Origin: Thermoplasmata archaeon
GTDB taxonomy: Archaea > Thermoplasmatota > Thermoplasmata > Thermoplasmatales > Thermoplasmataceae
Direction of reading: 5' to 3'
Assembly (NCBI GenBank): GCA_021802205.1
Contig: JAKAAT010000009.1
Span: 1-42,241, forward strand
DNA length: 42,241 nucleotides
The position numbers and the translations under genes were made by a program. A model generated the notes under the pieces. The model was not told the DNA's origin and searched no databases. It was given only the letters and a program-made list of their open reading frames with translations. Shown in pieces: positions 34,506-42,241 of this stretch. The first letter of the stretch is position 1; the number at the start of each line of letters is the position of its first letter.

Positions 34506-34591
34506 TATTATATTTGATTTTTCCAACAAATTGCTTTAGTGTGAATATTGGTATATCCGTAAATTAATTATTTTACATTACATTACTTGCC

Positions 34592-35410
34592 ATGGAAAAT
34601 GCAATTTTAATACACGGAGGTGCGGGAAGCCCATACTCCATGAATAGCGTACTTGAGGACATACTTAAGAATATAAAATTTGAAAATAATCCCCTGAATA
34701 TGGTTATAAACCCCGTAATATCAATGGAGGATAATCTATTATTCAATGCAGGAACAGGTTCAGTTCCCAGAATAGACGGAAGCATTCAGATGGACGCTGC
34801 CGTAATGTCAGGCAGAGAATTTGGTTCAGTAATATGCATAGAAAATGTGAAGAATCCCGTTCTTGTTGCAAGGGATGTGATGACTAAAAGTCCACATATA
34901 ATGCTCTCTGGTGATGGAGCAACAGAATTTGCCAGAATGATGGGACATGAATATTACAATCCTCAAACAGAAAGAAGTATGGAAAGATTAAGAAAATTCA
35001 TGGAGGAAACTGGAAAGACGGGGATGCCCGATAAGTTCAAGTTTCTTGAGAAAAAAACCGGAGATACAGTTGGTGCCGTTGTTAGAATAAATGGAAAATT
35101 TGCTGCTGCAGTCTCAACCGGTGGTGCATTTCCAATGTTAAGGGGGAGGGTTGGTGATTCCCCAATAATAGGTGCCGGAATATACGCAGGAGACAAAGGT
35201 GCAGTGGTAGCCACCGGAATAGGGGAGGAGATAGCCAGGAACCTTCTATCATATAGTATATATTCGCAGATAGGGCAACAAAGCCTTGAAACAATAGTGA
35301 AAAGAGAGGTTGACTCATTTGCAGTGAGTTGCGGTATAATAGCTATAACCGGAGATGAATACATATCATATTCAAACACAACAATGGCATATGCTTACCG
35401 GGAATTCTAA
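34592..35410 (+). CDS. Isoaspartyl peptidase / L-asparaginase (Ntn-hydrolase)
   Basis: Predicted self-cleaving plant-type asparaginase that hydrolyses isoaspartyl dipeptides or asparagine. In 272 residues, the autocleavage site and nucleophile is Thr159 in GDTVGAV, and the downstream STGGAF and GDSPIIGAGIYA motifs form the substrate pocket. The N-terminus ILIHGGAGSPYS is typical. An AAATTAATTATTTTA box about 25 nt upstream predicts a leaderless mRNA. Fits a protein-scavenging organism and repair of damaged proteins under acid and heat. Confidence 0.92.
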   Translation: MENAILIHGGAGSPYSMNSVLEDILKNIKFENNPLNMVINPVISMEDNLLFNAGTGSVPRIDGSIQMDAAVMSGREFGSVICIENVKNPVLVARDVMTKSPHIMLSGDGATEFARMMGHEYYNPQTERSMERLRKFMEETGKTGMPDKFKFLEKKTGDTVGAVVRINGKFAAAVSTGGAFPMLRGRVGDSPIIGAGIYAGDKGAVVATGIGEEIARNLLSYSIYSQIGQQSLETIVKREVDSFAVSCGIIAITGDEYISYSNTTMAYAYREF

Positions 35411-35452
35411 CAAAATAATTGTATTTTCTCCTGTATTTTAAATTTCTGGATT

Positions 35453-36154
35453 TTATATGTCAATCCAGTACGCTATGGGTTTTAGTACAGTTATAATTCT
35501 GGAATCGTCATGAACAGAAATGAATTCCCCAGCTATCAGTGCTTTCATAAGCTCTGAACCAAGGGAACCACCCAGATGGTATTCTTTTTCAGTAAGGTCT
35601 CTACATCCATATGCAAAAATTCTTCCATGTTTCCTTTTTACAGGTATTTTTACACCTAATTTGATCATATGGATTTCACCTGCATCAGTTAGGTCATATT
35701 CCGGTTTGTCGTTTATCTGTTTTAGCCATCCTTTTAATAAGAGCTTTTTCAGTAACATAACGCCCTGGGAACCTGCCAGGTGATCATAGCATCTTCTGCA
35801 TTCAGAAAAAGACGACTTATTAAAAGATTGTTTCACCGCTACAGACATTTTATGATTTCCGGCCATATCGTCAAGATACGTGGTTAGAAACTCAACCTGT
35901 TCCGGAATAATCTTATAAAATACCTTTCTTCCATACTGAAATTCATTAACAAAACCATATTCTGATAATATCTTTAAGTGAGACGATACCGATGGCTGTG
36001 ATCGAACCATGAATCCTGATATATCCATGACTGTTTTCATTCCATGTGAAAGAATTTTTATTATTTCCAGCCTTACAGGGTTTGATAGGCAGTAGAACAA
36101 TCGATCCATTGGAATTTCATTGATTTGTTCTGAATTGTTATTGTAATTGTCCAC
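35453..36154 (-). CDS. ArsR-type winged-helix regulator with C-terminal effector domain
   Basis: A 233-residue regulator. Residues about 18-85 form an ArsR-like winged helix (SNPVRLEIIKILSHG, then SQPSVSSHLKILSEYGFV and the wing YGRKVFYKI). The C-terminal region has two related half-motifs, CRRCYDHLAGSQG and CRDLTEKEYHLGGSLG, seen in a common ArsR subgroup; the cysteines could bind metal but need not. The GTG start has AAGAGGTGG at the same spot, so a start downstream at MDRLFYCLSN (36106) is possible. Divergent from an MFS exporter-like gene, which is the likely target. Confidence 0.8.
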   Translation of the reverse strand: MDNYNNNSEQINEIPMDRLFYCLSNPVRLEIIKILSHGMKTVMDISGFMVRSQPSVSSHLKILSEYGFVNEFQYGRKVFYKIIPEQVEFLTTYLDDMAGNHKMSVAVKQSFNKSSFSECRRCYDHLAGSQGVMLLKKLLLKGWLKQINDKPEYDLTDAGEIHMIKLGVKIPVKRKHGRIFAYGCRDLTEKEYHLGGSLGSELMKALIAGEFISVHDDSRIITVLKPIAYWIDI

Positions 36155-36222
36155 CTCTTATTATATTTTATTTGATTAATATACTTTGCCATTCATAAGG
36201 TTTTTATTATGTATAATTCATC

Positions 36223-36233
36223 TTAATTTATAA
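36223..36233 (+). promoter_or_regulatory. TATA box of the MFS gene at 36250
   Basis: TTAATTTATAA is centred about 22 nt before ATG 36250 in the 95-bp divergent gap shared with the ArsR-type gene. Confidence 0.5.
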
Positions 36234-36249
36234 CCGGAAATTAACCTGA

Positions 36250-37431
36250 ATGGAATACAAACAGGATAATTCAGGGGGCTCACGGTTTAAAGCAGGTAGT
36301 GCAGTTATAGTTCTCTTGCTGTTTTCCATAATGGCAGCCTCTAATGTGACAGCACCTATTTACGATCTCTATGCTTTGAAATACCATTTCGGGCCATTCA
36401 TTATCACGGATATTTTCGCCATATACGTTTTTCTGTTAATTCCATCACTCCTATTCTGGGGCCAGTATTCAGATAAATACGGAAGAAAACTGCCTATTAC
36501 TATAGGAGTTATTATAGAGCTAATAGGATTATTATCATTTCTACTCGCAAGAAATGTATATATGCTTTTCCTCGCACGTGCTTTTATGGGTATGGCAAGC
36601 GGAGCTATTGCGGGACCTGCTAGTGCATTATTATTCTCATATAGCCGGAAAGCTGGTGCTGTTCTTACATCCATAGGAACATCAGCGGGAACTGCCACGG
36701 GCCCTCTGATAGGTGGAATAATGGCCCAGTATTTGTCATATCCTTTAAAATTGGTTTATGTAATTTCTATTGTTCTAGTAATATTGCCTGCCATTGCAAT
36801 GTATCCTCTGAAGGATATATCAAGGGCGAATCCGGAATTGAAATTGCATTTTCCTTCTATTGACAGGGAAGTTATAAGGCCTTTCATGTTGAGTTCCTTT
36901 GCTGCATTTGTTGCATGGTCTATTACTGCGTTCTATATGTCCCTGGCTCCTGTATATATAATTAAACTTTCGGGAATAAATGATATAGCAATCGGTGGCA
37001 TTATTGTGTTTCTTATGCTGGGTGTAGCGTCTGTATTTCAGGTTATTTCCCTGAGATTTAAAATAAAAAGTTCAATGTTTTCAGGTATGGTTTTTATTGC
37101 ATTTGCAGTAATATTTATTCTCATTTCTATTATGAAAAATTCTCTCTATATTTTTGTTGCTGGAACTGTACTGGCCGGTATCGGGCAGGGATTCTCATTT
37201 ACTGGTGCAACCAGGGAAATAAAGGCGATTTCCCCACCGGAGAAAACAGGCGACACGCTTGCCAATTATTATATTATCATATACATAGGTGTCGGGCTCC
37301 CTGTAATCCTTCTGGGGTTACTGGATAAAATAACAGGGCTTTTTCATGGTATTCTATATTACGGCATAGCTTTTATTTTGCTATCAGTGTTTATGGGATT
37401 ACTGATTATCAAGGAGGATTTTAAAAATTAA
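36250..37431 (+). CDS. MFS transporter, drug/multidrug-like
   Basis: A 393-residue protein with 12 predicted helices and the motif A-like QYSDKYGRKLP between helices 2 and 3; ARAFMGMASGAIAGPASALLF is helix 4 and GTSAGTATGPLIGG in helix 5 resembles the antiporter motif C, which suggests efflux. It is divergent from an ArsR-type regulator, a layout typical of regulator-controlled exporters. Convergent with the NDH-2-like gene, with 10 bp between stops. The substrate is unknown. Confidence 0.82.
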   Translation: MEYKQDNSGGSRFKAGSAVIVLLLFSIMAASNVTAPIYDLYALKYHFGPFIITDIFAIYVFLLIPSLLFWGQYSDKYGRKLPITIGVIIELIGLLSFLLARNVYMLFLARAFMGMASGAIAGPASALLFSYSRKAGAVLTSIGTSAGTATGPLIGGIMAQYLSYPLKLVYVISIVLVILPAIAMYPLKDISRANPELKLHFPSIDREVIRPFMLSSFAAFVAWSITAFYMSLAPVYIIKLSGINDIAIGGIIVFLMLGVASVFQVISLRFKIKSSMFSGMVFIAFAVIFILISIMKNSLYIFVAGTVLAGIGQGFSFTGATREIKAISPPEKTGDTLANYYIIIYIGVGLPVILLGLLDKITGLFHGILYYGIAFILLSVFMGLLIIKEDFKN

Positions 37432-37441
37432 TACAAATTTA

Positions 37442-38449
37442 TTATGTTCTGATTATTTGATTTAATTTTTCCAGTGTTTTTTCAGTTTTTCCATTAACAT
37501 ATTTCTTTATGATGCCGGTAAATGGACCCTTGCTGAAGCTGTTTTCCTTTACCATTATGTACTTTCCATTTAAACTCAGTATATTTCCACTCCTATAATC
37601 ATTGAATTCTACCCGGGAGCCTGTAGCATTTCTCATTGCAATAGTTCCAGATTTCCTGGCTATAAATGCAGTCATAGGGAAATTCTTTCCCTCAATTTTC
37701 ATAGAATCTCCACAGGCATATACATCATCATAATCAACCGATTGCAAATATTTATTCACAATTATTCTTGAATTTTCTGATTTTATTCCCAGATTTTCAA
37801 TCAATGGATTTCCAGAAATTCCACCTGCATATACAGTTAAATCAGATTTAATTTCCCTGTCAGAAAGCAATACCGAACTACTTTTGACTTCCTGCACTGT
37901 AGCGCCTGTGACAATATTTACGCCGGTATTTTTCAAATACTCGGATATATAAACAGAGGCACTTTCTGGACCACTTTTAAGAATTCTTGATCCAGACTCA
38001 ATTACTGTAACATTCTTTACAGGCATTATGGATGCCAGTTCAACGCCAAGATAGCTACCGCCGACGATTGTGATGTTTTCCGCCTTTCTGATAAGTTCTT
38101 TTAAACTTAATGCATCTTCTATTGTTTCCAGTTTATGAAGGAACTGACTCCCCTCTATGGTTTTTATCGCCTGGTTATGTCCTAAGGCAATGATCAACTT
38201 TCCATAGGATATATTTCCCCTATCTGTTACAATCAGCCTGTTTGCAAAATCAATATCCATTACAGTCTCATTTCTATCTACAGGCCTCTGCTTATATGCG
38301 TAGCTTTTATCTGTGCTATTCACAACGTTGACCAATCTGGTAGATATAGTAAGATATTTTGATTTATCGATTAATATAGATTGTGGATTCTGCATCTTGG
38401 AATATATTCCGGAAAGACCTGCCCCGAGGATAAACACATTGCCAGCCAT
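37442..38449 (-). CDS. FAD/NAD-dependent oxidoreductase (NDH-2-like)
   Basis: A 335-residue flavoprotein of the pyridine-nucleotide-disulfide oxidoreductase superfamily. It has the FAD motif ILGAGLSG (7-14), a second Rossmann motif IVGGSYLGVELA for NAD(P)H, and the FAD-contacting VYACGDSM near 240. There is no redox CxxC, so it resembles type II NADH dehydrogenase or sulfide:quinone reductase-like proteins. The SQR cysteines are absent. It is shorter than usual NDH-2 and has no clear C-terminal membrane helix; partner and acceptor are unknown. Confidence 0.78.
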   Translation of the reverse strand: MAGNVFILGAGLSGIYSKMQNPQSILIDKSKYLTISTRLVNVVNSTDKSYAYKQRPVDRNETVMDIDFANRLIVTDRGNISYGKLIIALGHNQAIKTIEGSQFLHKLETIEDALSLKELIRKAENITIVGGSYLGVELASIMPVKNVTVIESGSRILKSGPESASVYISEYLKNTGVNIVTGATVQEVKSSSVLLSDREIKSDLTVYAGGISGNPLIENLGIKSENSRIIVNKYLQSVDYDDVYACGDSMKIEGKNFPMTAFIARKSGTIAMRNATGSRVEFNDYRSGNILSLNGKYIMVKENSFSKGPFTGIIKKYVNGKTEKTLEKLNQIIRT

Positions 38450-38563
38450 AAAAATCCAATCAGTAATAGATATATGTAATTTATGACTTAAATAAACATA
38501 TTTTTAAAGGTTTTAGCCTTATTCTCCGAAGTCCATAAATCTAAAGCAATCAATTTCATTCTA

Positions 38564-39505
38564 TTACTCTGTATTCCTCAATATATCTTCAATTTTCTTC
38601 AGGTCAAATAATAATACTTTATCCTGTTCTGCAATATCTTTCAATTTATCAGTAAAACCGGATTTGCTGAATAGTATAAAATATTCATTTCTGTTATCAT
38701 TATTCCACTGTACACTTGCCGACTTTCTTTTAAGGTCATCATACACCGGAACATCCACTGGCCTGTTAGTCCATTTACATTCTCCGAATATTACACTTTT
38801 CTTATCCTCATTCAAAGCTGCAATATCTATTTCTTCCTGATTTTTACCTTCAATTCCCGAATTGTTTTTTCCCCACCATCTTCCAATTTGCTGTATACTG
38901 AACGGTAAAATGCTGTGTTTTTGATTATTCATATACACTATTAATTCCCTGCATATCTCTTCGAATTTATGTGGAACGATTGAATCAATTGATTCTATTA
39001 ATAAATTAACCACGCCATTATAATTTCCCAGCTCGAATTGATTTATAATTGGATAAAATTTGCTGAACCAGAAATCCATGTAATTATCGCTTAATTTGTA
39101 AATTCCTTTTTTATCGATTTTATTATTTTTTTTGGTAACAGGTAATTCATAAACTATCAGGTTCAATATATCCTTCAATTCATATAAATAGGATTGCATG
39201 GATGTGGCCTTGATATCTGTAATAGAAGCAATATCCGATACTTTTGTGCGTCCTGTTGAAATTGCATACAGTATGGAGAAGTAAGTTTGCGATCTCCGTC
39301 CAAATTCCTCTGTTATAAAATCCCTTGGCTCGAACACAAATACACTGTTACTGTCCAGGAAAATACTTCGTATCATTGCCTCAACGTTTCTGAGATTATT
39401 TATATGAAAATATTTGTGAAACTGGGGGGATCCACCAAATATTGAATACATCCTGATCGCATCATAGATACCAATATTCAAAAATTTATATAATCCATAA
39501 TTCCA
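38564..39505 (-). pseudogene. C-terminal part of DUF234-family AAA ATPase, separated by IS607 insertion
   Basis: This is the 3' part of an archaeal AAA ATPase whose 5' part lies at 41407..41922. The frame is open upstream of the ORF-track start (TTG 39481) to a TGG at 39505, encoding WNYGLYKFLN, then the family-typical YSIFGGSPQ, a winged helix (TYFSILYAISTGRTKVSDIA) and DUF234, a PD-(D/E)XK-like domain with EEIDIAAL and GECKW. In this family the linker YGRRT...LKPFDF directly precedes this region, and that linker ends the other fragment. Whether the orphan C-terminal part is still translated is unknown. Confidence 0.88.
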
Positions 39506-39512
39506 CTAACTA

Positions 39513-39524
39513 TTTATATAAATA
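39513..39524 (+). promoter_or_regulatory. TATA box of tnpA at the left end of the element
   Basis: TTTATATAAATA is centred 26 nt before ATG 39544 but only 14 nt before ATG 39532, which supports the downstream start for tnpA. Confidence 0.55.
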
Positions 39525-39543
39525 ATGTATTATGTTATTAACT

Positions 39544-40140
39544 ATGAAGGCGAATGAGGTATTAAACCTATTAAGAATTTCCAGAAAAACACTACACGTC
39601 TATGCTTCAACAGGAAAAATAAGATTTAGAGTTATGCCCAATGGCTTCTATGATTACAATGATGAGGATGTTTATAAATTATTGAATAGGGATGTTAAAA
39701 GGAAAACAGTAATATATGCAAGGATATCAACAATAAAACAGAAGAACGATTTAAATAATCAGATAGAGCAGTTAAAGCAGTGGTGCTTTATGAATGGGTA
39801 TACAATAAATGCAATATATTCAGACATAGCATCCGGTATATCATTTGATAAGAGAAAAGGATTCTTTGATATGCTTGATGAAATTATAAACTATAGAGTG
39901 GAAAAAGTAATAATAACATACAGGGACAGGTTAAGCAGGATTGGTTTTGATTTATTCAAAAACCTCTTTGAAAAGTTTGGCACTGAAATAGTTGTTATAT
40001 CTGAAATTGGGAGTACAAAATTGGATTCAGAGGAAATATTTGAGGATATAATTTCAATGCTTCATTGTTATTCAATGAAAATGTATTCAAAAACAAAAAA
40101 TCATTCAATAGAGGTAGGCTATGAAGATAATCAGGACTGA
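39544..40140 (+). CDS. tnpA: IS607-family serine recombinase (transposase TnpA)
   Basis: A 198-residue transposase from ATG 39544. The N-terminal MerR-like helix-turn-helix (MKANEVLNLLRISRKTLHVY) comes before the resolvase catalytic domain, the order characteristic of IS607. The nucleophile serine is in YARISTIKQK (about residue 58), and YRDRLSRIGFDLF holds the conserved arginines. The C-terminal helix EEIFEDIISMLHCYSMKMY matches the family. It looks complete, so the element may still move. Its end overlaps the tnpB start by 20 bases. Confidence 0.92.
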   Translation: MKANEVLNLLRISRKTLHVYASTGKIRFRVMPNGFYDYNDEDVYKLLNRDVKRKTVIYARISTIKQKNDLNNQIEQLKQWCFMNGYTINAIYSDIASGISFDKRKGFFDMLDEIINYRVEKVIITYRDRLSRIGFDLFKNLFEKFGTEIVVISEIGSTKLDSEEIFEDIISMLHCYSMKMYSKTKNHSIEVGYEDNQD

Positions 40141-41374
40141 ACAGATTTTTATCCGTGATAATGGCACTGTATCTAAAATCTGCCATATGTCAAAGAACCT
40201 GTTCAACCAGACAAATTACATTCTAAGAAACTAGTTTTTCAGGAAGGAAAAGATGTCTCCATATAAAGAGCTTGCAAAAGAATTTGCAGAACCATCAGCT
40301 CTGGAGGAAAACAACAATTTCCAGAAACTGCCAGCACAGACAGCACAGTGGGCTATCAAAAAGGTAAAGCAGTCATGGAATTCATTCTTTGGGGCTCTGA
40401 GGTCGTATAAAAAGAATCCGGAGTTATTCAATGGAGTTCCTAAACCGCCCAGGTATAAGCATAAGAATGGGGAATTTATGCTTGTATTCACAAATCAGCA
40501 GTGCTCTATTGATGATGGAATTCTTAAATTCCCTAAAATAATGGATTTAGAGGTGGAAACAAGATTAGATAATAATGCAAATCTGAGAGAAGTAAGAATA
40601 ATACCAAATGGTGTCGGCTATAATGTAGAGATAGTATATGCTAAAGAGATAACAGATATATCAGATATAACACAAATAAAAGCAAACAGGATACTTGGCA
40701 TTGATATTGGGGTAAGGAACATCATAACCATTGGAAACAACATATCCGAAAAGGGTATTGCTGTCAAGGGTGGTGTTCTTAAATCCATTAACCAGTATTT
40801 CAATAAGGAATTATCAAGATTAAAATCTGTAAATGATAAACAGGGAAATAAAGAGAATACAAAAAGAATAAATAATCTCTACATGGTTAGAAACAGGAAG
40901 ATAAGGGATGTTATGCATAAAATATCAAGTGCAGTTATATCATATGCAATAACCAATGAAATAGATACAATTGTAATAGGCCATAACAATGGATGGAAGC
41001 AGTCTGTAGATATAGGAAAAAAGAACAACCAGAACTTTGTCCAGATTCCATTTAACATGCTTATAAATCAAATATACTATAAGGGCAAAGAATATGGAAT
41101 AAATGTAGTCAAGCAGGAAGAGAGTTATACATCTAAATGTTCATTCCTTGACAGTGAAGAAATAGATAAGCATAAAATATATTCAGGAAAAAGAATAAAG
41201 AGAGGAATATTCAGATCAGCAAATGGAACCCTTATACATGCAGACTTGAATGCATCATACAACATAATTAAAAAAGCAATCCCTGAAGCGTTTGCGAACG
41301 GGATAGAGGATATTGGGTTGTATCCAGGAAGTTTAAGCATCAAGGAGATGACAACTTCTAAAGGTGGATGTTAA
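40121..41374 (+). pseudogene. tnpB: TnpB (RNA-guided nuclease family) interrupted by an early amber codon
   Basis: Translation from ATG 40121 (GAGGT site at 40111) reads MKIIRTEQIF...NYILRN, then a TAG at 40232-40234, then FFRKEKMSPYKELAKEF in the same frame. The ORF track sees only the part after the stop (from 40253). The RuvC core follows: LGIDIGVRN (first Asp), TIVIGHNNGWKQ, EESYTSKCSF and HADLNASYNI (last Asp). The usual Glu of RuvC-II is replaced in the GHNNGWKQ motif and the four-cysteine zinc ribbon is mostly lost. Without readthrough, or a restart at ATG 40253 (373 residues), the protein lacks its N-terminal DNA-binding segment. Confidence 0.85.
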
Positions 41375-41375
41375 C

Positions 41376-41393
41376 ATGGTTAACAGAAACCAT
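41376..41393 (+). ncRNA. Right-end hairpin, candidate 3' part of omega/reRNA
   Basis: ATGGTT-AACAGA-AACCAT forms a perfect 6-bp stem just after the tnpB stop and 13 bases inside the inferred right end. In related elements the right end encodes the guide RNA scaffold for TnpB, with the guide read from the flank (here starting near 41407). The role is inferred from family knowledge. Confidence 0.4.
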
Positions 41394-41406
41394 AACCTGA
41401 TGTGGC

Positions 41407-41922
41407 AAAATCAAATTTTTTTAAATTCATGATCGAAGTTGCTCTTTTATATAGTGGTAAACTTATGTCCAGAAATATTCTCTTAATCAGACCTATAGAA
41501 GACCCTGAACAAACTATTGATAATTTTGAATGGTCAAGGTATAGATCAATATTCTTTTGAAGTGCTGTAAATAGTGATTTATTGATGTCCTCAAATCTCT
41601 AGAATTCATCAAAATAAACCACTGTCTCCTTATGTGTGGAGAGTTCAAATAAACCCATCACAAATAAATCCCAGTCCGGTGGATTGAAAAGTGCTGTATT
41701 AAAATATTCTCTAACTATCAATGAAAATTCCTGCAACAATAAATTTGAGCTTTTCGTGTTATCCACATATAAATATATGCCACCGATTTTATCCATCGTT
41801 TTTTTTATAAGTTCAGTTTTTCCTACCTTTCTCTTACCGTATAAAACAATTAAGGATCTGTATTTTTCTATATCTGATATTAATGCTTCTAATTCTGAAT
41901 CCCTATCAAAAAATATTTCCAT
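41407..41922 (-). pseudogene. N-terminal part of DUF234-family AAA ATPase with in-frame amber codon
   Basis: ATG 41922 begins a STAND/AAA-type ATPase with Walker A GKRKVGKT (29-36) and Walker B VVYFDEF (101-107). A TAG at 41601-41599 ends the ORF-track frame, but after it the same frame continues for 64 codons as RFEDINKSLFTALQKNID, SIVCSGSSIGLIKRIF and KRATSIMNLKKFDF up to the IS607 border. The family motif is DEFQR, so CAG to TAG is the likely change. With the other fragment the gene would encode about 485 residues, a normal length. These ATPases are often linked to mobile or defence functions, but the role is unclear. Confidence 0.88.
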
Positions 41923-41983
41923 GATTATATTTATAATGATTATATTAATAATCTTTTTTTATACATAATGATTATCTAATAAT
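41923..41983. repeat. Tandem 15-bp repeats upstream of the ATPase start
   Basis: GATTATATTTATAAT (41923) is followed at once by GATTATATTAATAAT (41938), and GATTATCTAATAAT recurs at 41970. Each unit is partly symmetric (ATTAT...ATAAT). They abut the ATPase ATG and cover its expected promoter, so they could be an operator or just low-complexity AT-rich sequence. Confidence 0.4.
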
Positions 41984-42137
41984 TTTTCAAGTCACACGGA
42001 AGAACTATAAGAACAATATATATAATAAAACCGGCTAAGATCATTTCACAATCTTTGGCGATGCATAATCCATATAAGAGAAATATATTAGAATAAAAGA
42101 GATTTTCCGTTATTTAAATCAAAAATATAAAATTATT

Positions 42138-42241
42138 TTAGAAGCTAACCGATGCTGTTGCCATCTTAGCTTTCTGTGTTGGCACTACAAGCGTAACCGT
42201 ATATTTTCCATGTAACTCCATTCCGGTGCTGCTGGTTAAGT
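42138..42241 (-). CDS. C-terminal end of an unidentified, probably surface-exposed protein (partial)
   Basis: The minus strand has an open frame running off the window edge and ending in TAA at 42140-42138. The visible 33 residues include GKYTVTLVVPTQ and end in ATASVSF, an alternating beta-strand pattern rich in Thr/Val/Ser, as in C-termini of secreted Ig-like, pilin-like or S-layer proteins. Too short for the ORF track and for identification. The 150 bp before it hold no other feature I can support. Confidence 0.45.
   Translation of the reverse strand, partial: LTSSTGMELHGKYTVTLVVPTQKAKMATASVSF

Follow-up and report, generated by a model that had tools for sequence, protein, structure and literature searches.

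A DUF234-type ATPase gene split by an IS607-family tnpA-tnpB element in a Thermoplasmata archaeon

Genes and features at the locus

The window, i.e. the whole stretch of DNA that was analysed (42 241 nt), carries an IS607-family tnpA-tnpB element within a DUF234-type ATPase gene of the opposite strand (Table 1). The two in-phase halves of a single ATPase_2/DUF234 gene flank the transposon genes, as a preliminary description of this DNA had proposed.

Table 1. Features of the interrupted gene and of the element (window coordinates)
Feature	Position	Strand	Remarks
DUF234-type ATPase gene, whole span	41922 to 38564	-	Split by the IS607-family tnpA-tnpB element
DUF234-type ATPase gene, 5' part	41398..41922	-	175 codons, TAG included
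In-frame TAG of the ATPase gene, taken as nonsense codon	41599-41601	-	Residue 108, a conserved Gln; DEFQRF in orthologues
DUF234-type ATPase gene, 3' part	38564..39490	-	308 codons and TAA; DUF234 (PF03008) 79.7 bits; orthologue alignment
IS607-family element	39492..41397	+	1906 bp; flanked by T39491 and T41398, of which one is the exchange base common to both borders
TAT of target at left end	39489..39491	+	Shared base is the final T; TAT is a candidate TAM for TnpB
Shared T at right end	41398..41398	+	T at 33 of 33 right ends
tnpA, IS607-family serine transposase	39532..40140	+	202 aa, intact; start may be ATG 39544 (MKANEV)
tnpB	40121..41374	+	In-frame TAG; open part 40253-41374, 373 aa
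In-frame TAG of tnpB, taken as nonsense codon	40232-40234	+	Gln in nearly all other copies
Conserved RNA structure, probable reRNA (omega RNA) scaffold	41279..41398	+	Overlaps the 3' end of tnpB
Predicted reRNA guide	41399..41418	+	Flanking host DNA; by analogy with ISXfa1

The TnpA product matched the NCBIfam equivalog model for IS607 (NF033518) with 176.4 bits against a cut-off of 110, as well as the Pfam Resolvase domain (PF00239); TnpB matched the guided_TnpB model (NF040570) with 170 bits against a cut-off of 100. Using the definitions of PMC10711439, we recognized by eye in TnpB a DIG motif as well as a glutamate that precedes the first zinc-finger cysteine by six residues; the zinc finger, also judged by eye, is degenerate. 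The nuclease frame of the window copy is interrupted by its TAG; two other copies (G000:C4 and G005:C14) have an open tnpB of 413 aa, and many copies of the element are present in the genus and the family. In having an IS607-type serine TnpA with tnpB downstream the element resembles members of the IS607 family (IS607, ISC1926, IS1535 and ISC1904; PMC6188088, PMC4058570).

When the halves of the host gene were scored apart, DUF234 was above its cut-off, while ATPase_2 (PF01637), scored on the open 107 aa of the 5' part only, reached 31.8 bits, just below the cut-off of 33.2. In the intact orthologue from genome G005 the ATPase_2 domain scored 61.6 bits and was followed by PF03008. This orthologue also matched the PADLOC candidate PDC-S27 (E-value 8.5e-35), and its ATPase part is similar to the solved ATPases 2qen and 2fna (PDB). 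The intact orthologues have the domain order and length of archaeal ATPase_2 and DUF234 proteins (PF01637, PF03008; PDC-S27; 2qen, 2fna), whereas the window copy, with its insertion and nonsense mutation, is a pseudogene. An ATP-driven role in defence or in an action on DNA is a plausible prediction for the product. A literature search on DUF234 did not help to assign a function, the top-ranked matches being mostly papers on secretion systems.

Uninterrupted orthologues and the empty site

We searched 100 relatives for the intact gene at the DNA and protein levels and found it uninterrupted in three congeneric sister genomes (G005, G006 and G007), each encoding 481 aa. The preliminary description had derived a probable empty-site sequence, and the uninterrupted orthologues support the existence of an empty site; in these three genomes we saw neither a large extra segment at the junction nor two separate conserved genes, the two arrangements that it had named as speaking against its proposal. 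The window is collinear with G006 and G007 from position 34560 to 39494 and then again from 41398; because collinearity holds on both sides, the gene of G006 and G007 is the same locus rather than a paralogue. In the part of G005 that was compared, the match was confined to the gene.

Contig C67 of G000 (L156, 6894 bp) carries the neighbourhood 34560-42239 a second time. Over 5984 bp this contig is 99.2% identical to contig C35 of G007, on which ground we rejected the possibility that it is a paralogue in the same genome; judging from the sequence, it was probably binned wrongly and derives from a sister species.

The four intact sequences (G005, G006, G007 and contig C67) align without gaps over the corrected junction, with 74-77% protein identity. 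The empty site derived for the window, inferred from orthologues in sister genomes ∼75% identical rather than from the same strain, is TTTATA[T]GATGTGGC; G006, G007 and C67 read TTTATATGATGT at that site. The junction expected in an empty allele of the window strain is TTTATATGATGTGGC. The corrected join reads FDF-ATS-YKFLN, and the rejoined gene has 483 codons and a stop, with the TAG still internal.

Degraded relatives of the gene were seen as well. Short remnants in three genomes (G000:C76, L158; G004:C1, L159; G009:C1:497292-497646) have the first ∼85 codons of a DUF234-type gene joined directly to the last ∼40; as the three share one structure, we read them as a shared internal deletion. 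In G009 (Ferroplasma acidarmanus Fer1, same genus) an orthologous-looking gene (G009:C1:53621-54490, L157) runs from an N-terminal segment of ∼40 codons straight into the DUF234 half, with the greater part of the ATPase domain missing.

Borders of the element and the exchange site

The borders given in Table 1 rest on the length-matched empty site in orthologues, on three further coding insertions with an identical exchange point and on ends conserved in ∼30 copies. These copies, from the same and related genomes, agree in ending with ATAACC on the right, next to a T, and in having TAT just before the left end. The TAT was present at all 35 left ends, 29 of them in register and six after a register shift of 1-2 bases, and homologues with the empty site show that it belongs to the target. 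Among the coding insertions, the same rule restores the frame SEYNIGFTIG at G005:C14 (eight uninterrupted homologues, equal length), the frame KQIESRLDYMEKHNIYNII at G000:C4 (two homologues) and LNDYGIAKLEIVF at G057:C23, where there was no homologue for comparison. The empty sites of copies L101, L104 and L113 were left out as too divergent or too rich in indels. A start of the element at ATAATCC, guessed from conservation of the ends, was rejected since real empty sites are two bases longer.

Comparison of the ends by eye revealed no inverted repeat at the termini, and the target duplication is limited to one shared T; likewise, in the IS607 family terminal inverted repeats are not found and the target duplication does not exceed one base (PMC6188088, PMC4058570). 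In characterized IS607 elements, GG is found both at the termini and at the insertion site (PMC6188088; PMC10711439). The window element, in contrast to IS607, ISC1926, IS1535 and ISC1904, has no shared GG at its termini and target; the shared base is a single T after TA. We do not claim the TA[T] exchange site as new, since most IS607 members, not all, are said to end in GG (PMC6188088). A one-base core and a two-base core with a tolerated mismatch both fit the sequence.

Beyond the exchange point we observed a purine bias in the flanks. The second base after the shared T in the right flanks of 33 copies was A in 19, G in 11, C in three and T in none; the base before the left TAT was A in 16, G in nine, C in three and T in one. 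The target preference may therefore be wider than TAT.

In-frame TAG codons

The 5' half of the host gene, which had been described as open from ATG 41922 to 41407, closes at TAG 41599-41601 after 107 aa. Two observations raise the question of recoding: this TAG and the one in tnpB both occupy the position of a conserved Gln, and TAG terminates none of the convincing genes of the window. Were TAG read as an amino acid, e.g. Gln, there would be no nonsense mutation either in the ATPase gene or in tnpB. Over ∼370 kb of the window's genome, however, TAG terminates 27 of 278 long ORFs, often with another stop within a few codons, and the anticodon CUA was absent among the tRNAs read in this genome. 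We regard the chance of recoding as practically negligible: as far as the sequence can tell, this genome uses TAG as a normal stop, and both in-frame TAGs are taken as nonsense mutations. The host gene is then a pseudogene on two independent grounds, the insertion and the stop at residue 108. Because of this TAG, clean excision of the element would leave the gene broken.

Right-end RNA structure

The conserved structure at the right end of the element has 33 pairs, with 97.1% of cells paired and 10 pairs showing two-sided changes; none of 500 shuffles scored as high. The covariation support is good, with the reservations that structure and test rest on one alignment, that a few divergent copies contribute most of the two-sided (compensatory) changes and that the region partly codes for TnpB. 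A search of the element against Rfam gave no family match. The structure fits a TnpB guide RNA scaffold, and this is its probable identity.

The closest parallel is ISXfa1, in which TnpB works with a structured right-end RNA whose scaffold includes the fixed base that flanks the right end (PMC10711439). The window element has the same kind of structured RNA and a fixed base directly after the right end, so by analogy the guide would begin after T41398 and would match the gene's own empty site. The two elements differ in several respects (PMC10711439): the fixed base is T in the window and G in ISXfa1; the candidate TAM is TAT here versus GGG there; and the window tnpB is broken by a TAG and has, as judged by eye, the alternative glutamate with a D-hydrophobic-G motif.

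Interpretation of the insertion

With high confidence we conclude that a 1906-bp IS607-family element was inserted at TA[T] inside a DUF234-type ATPase gene and that the host gene is doubly dead. Other readings of the junction were weighed against this one. An exchange at GG, as in IS607 itself, was first suggested by BLAST overlap; it would join the gene as ACATCA-GG-ATTATATAAA, with two extra codons. GG does occur near both ends on the minus strand, the resulting join is also in frame and such a core is used by characterized IS607 elements (PMC6188088). Yet the product would carry 6 bases too many in comparison with all four orthologous sequences, GG is missing at the left end of other copies, where T is invariant, and the three other coding insertions require the T exchange point; we find a GG exchange at this locus very unlikely. 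The preliminary description placed the junction at GATTTT/TGGAAT (empty allele GATTTTTGGAAT), with an insert of 1901 bp and an intact frame of ∼485 codons after excision. Its frame WNYGLYKFLN from 39505 and the downstream YSIFGG can be read as it said, but WNYGL is not host sequence: it corresponds to 15 bp on the element side (39505-39491), of which bases 39492 to 39505 lie within the end shared with other copies. The same join drops nine host bases (ATS, 41406-41398), so that it disagrees with all orthologues; the 6-bp difference between its two border errors is what keeps it in phase. The insert is in fact 1906 bp plus one extra copy of the shared T, the rejoined frame has 483 codons and is closed by the internal TAG, and the borders and empty site so derived are contradicted by the sister genomes, the ∼30 copies and the three coding insertions. 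The probability that this version is right is close to nil.

An artefact of assembly, with a copy of the element misjoined to unrelated gene halves, is a more general concern for an assembly of 105 contigs with ∼4% contamination, where the element is repeated and several of its copies lie at contig ends, the places where misjoins occur. Against it, the halves come from one orthologous gene, their order, strand and phase are correct and the exchange site has lost no base. The most similar other copy in this genome is only ∼88% identical to that of the window, so confusion between copies is unlikely. Such an artefact appears highly improbable, and insertion at TA[T] is retained.

The comparisons show that an IS607-family element with intact tnpA, TAG-damaged tnpB and the right-end RNA entered the ATPase gene in an archaeon of the Ferroplasma group; apart from one shared T, the target was not duplicated. 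TnpA would excise the element as a circle and insert the circle by serine-recombinase strand exchange; a circular double-stranded intermediate and transposition that needs only TnpA are among the characters of the IS607 family. Where tnpB is intact, TnpB with the right-end RNA, its guide being the flanking host DNA, could cut the empty site; such cutting would favour retention of the element.

The insertion is ordinary and well resolved, the TA[T] exchange site being its only point of wider interest. One could speculate that some IS607 elements, forming a Thermoplasmata lineage, target TA[T] and share a single T rather than a GG core; the fixed T would probably lie in the scaffold of the TnpB guide RNA, and TAT would be the TAM. 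We see about even chances for this proposal. Base-exact borders of an archaeal IS607 element, resting on four coding insertions, make the target choice and exchange of an IS607 serine transposase without a GG core testable. The locus also demonstrates that a gene may look fit for rejoining and yet be dead on another, independent count.

Shortened copies of the element were observed in two other genomes: L112 (G014:C44, 405 bp) and L105 (G008:C34, 1220 bp). Both have kept the two ends and the right-end RNA structure and, to judge from their sequences, may be mobilized in trans by TnpA.
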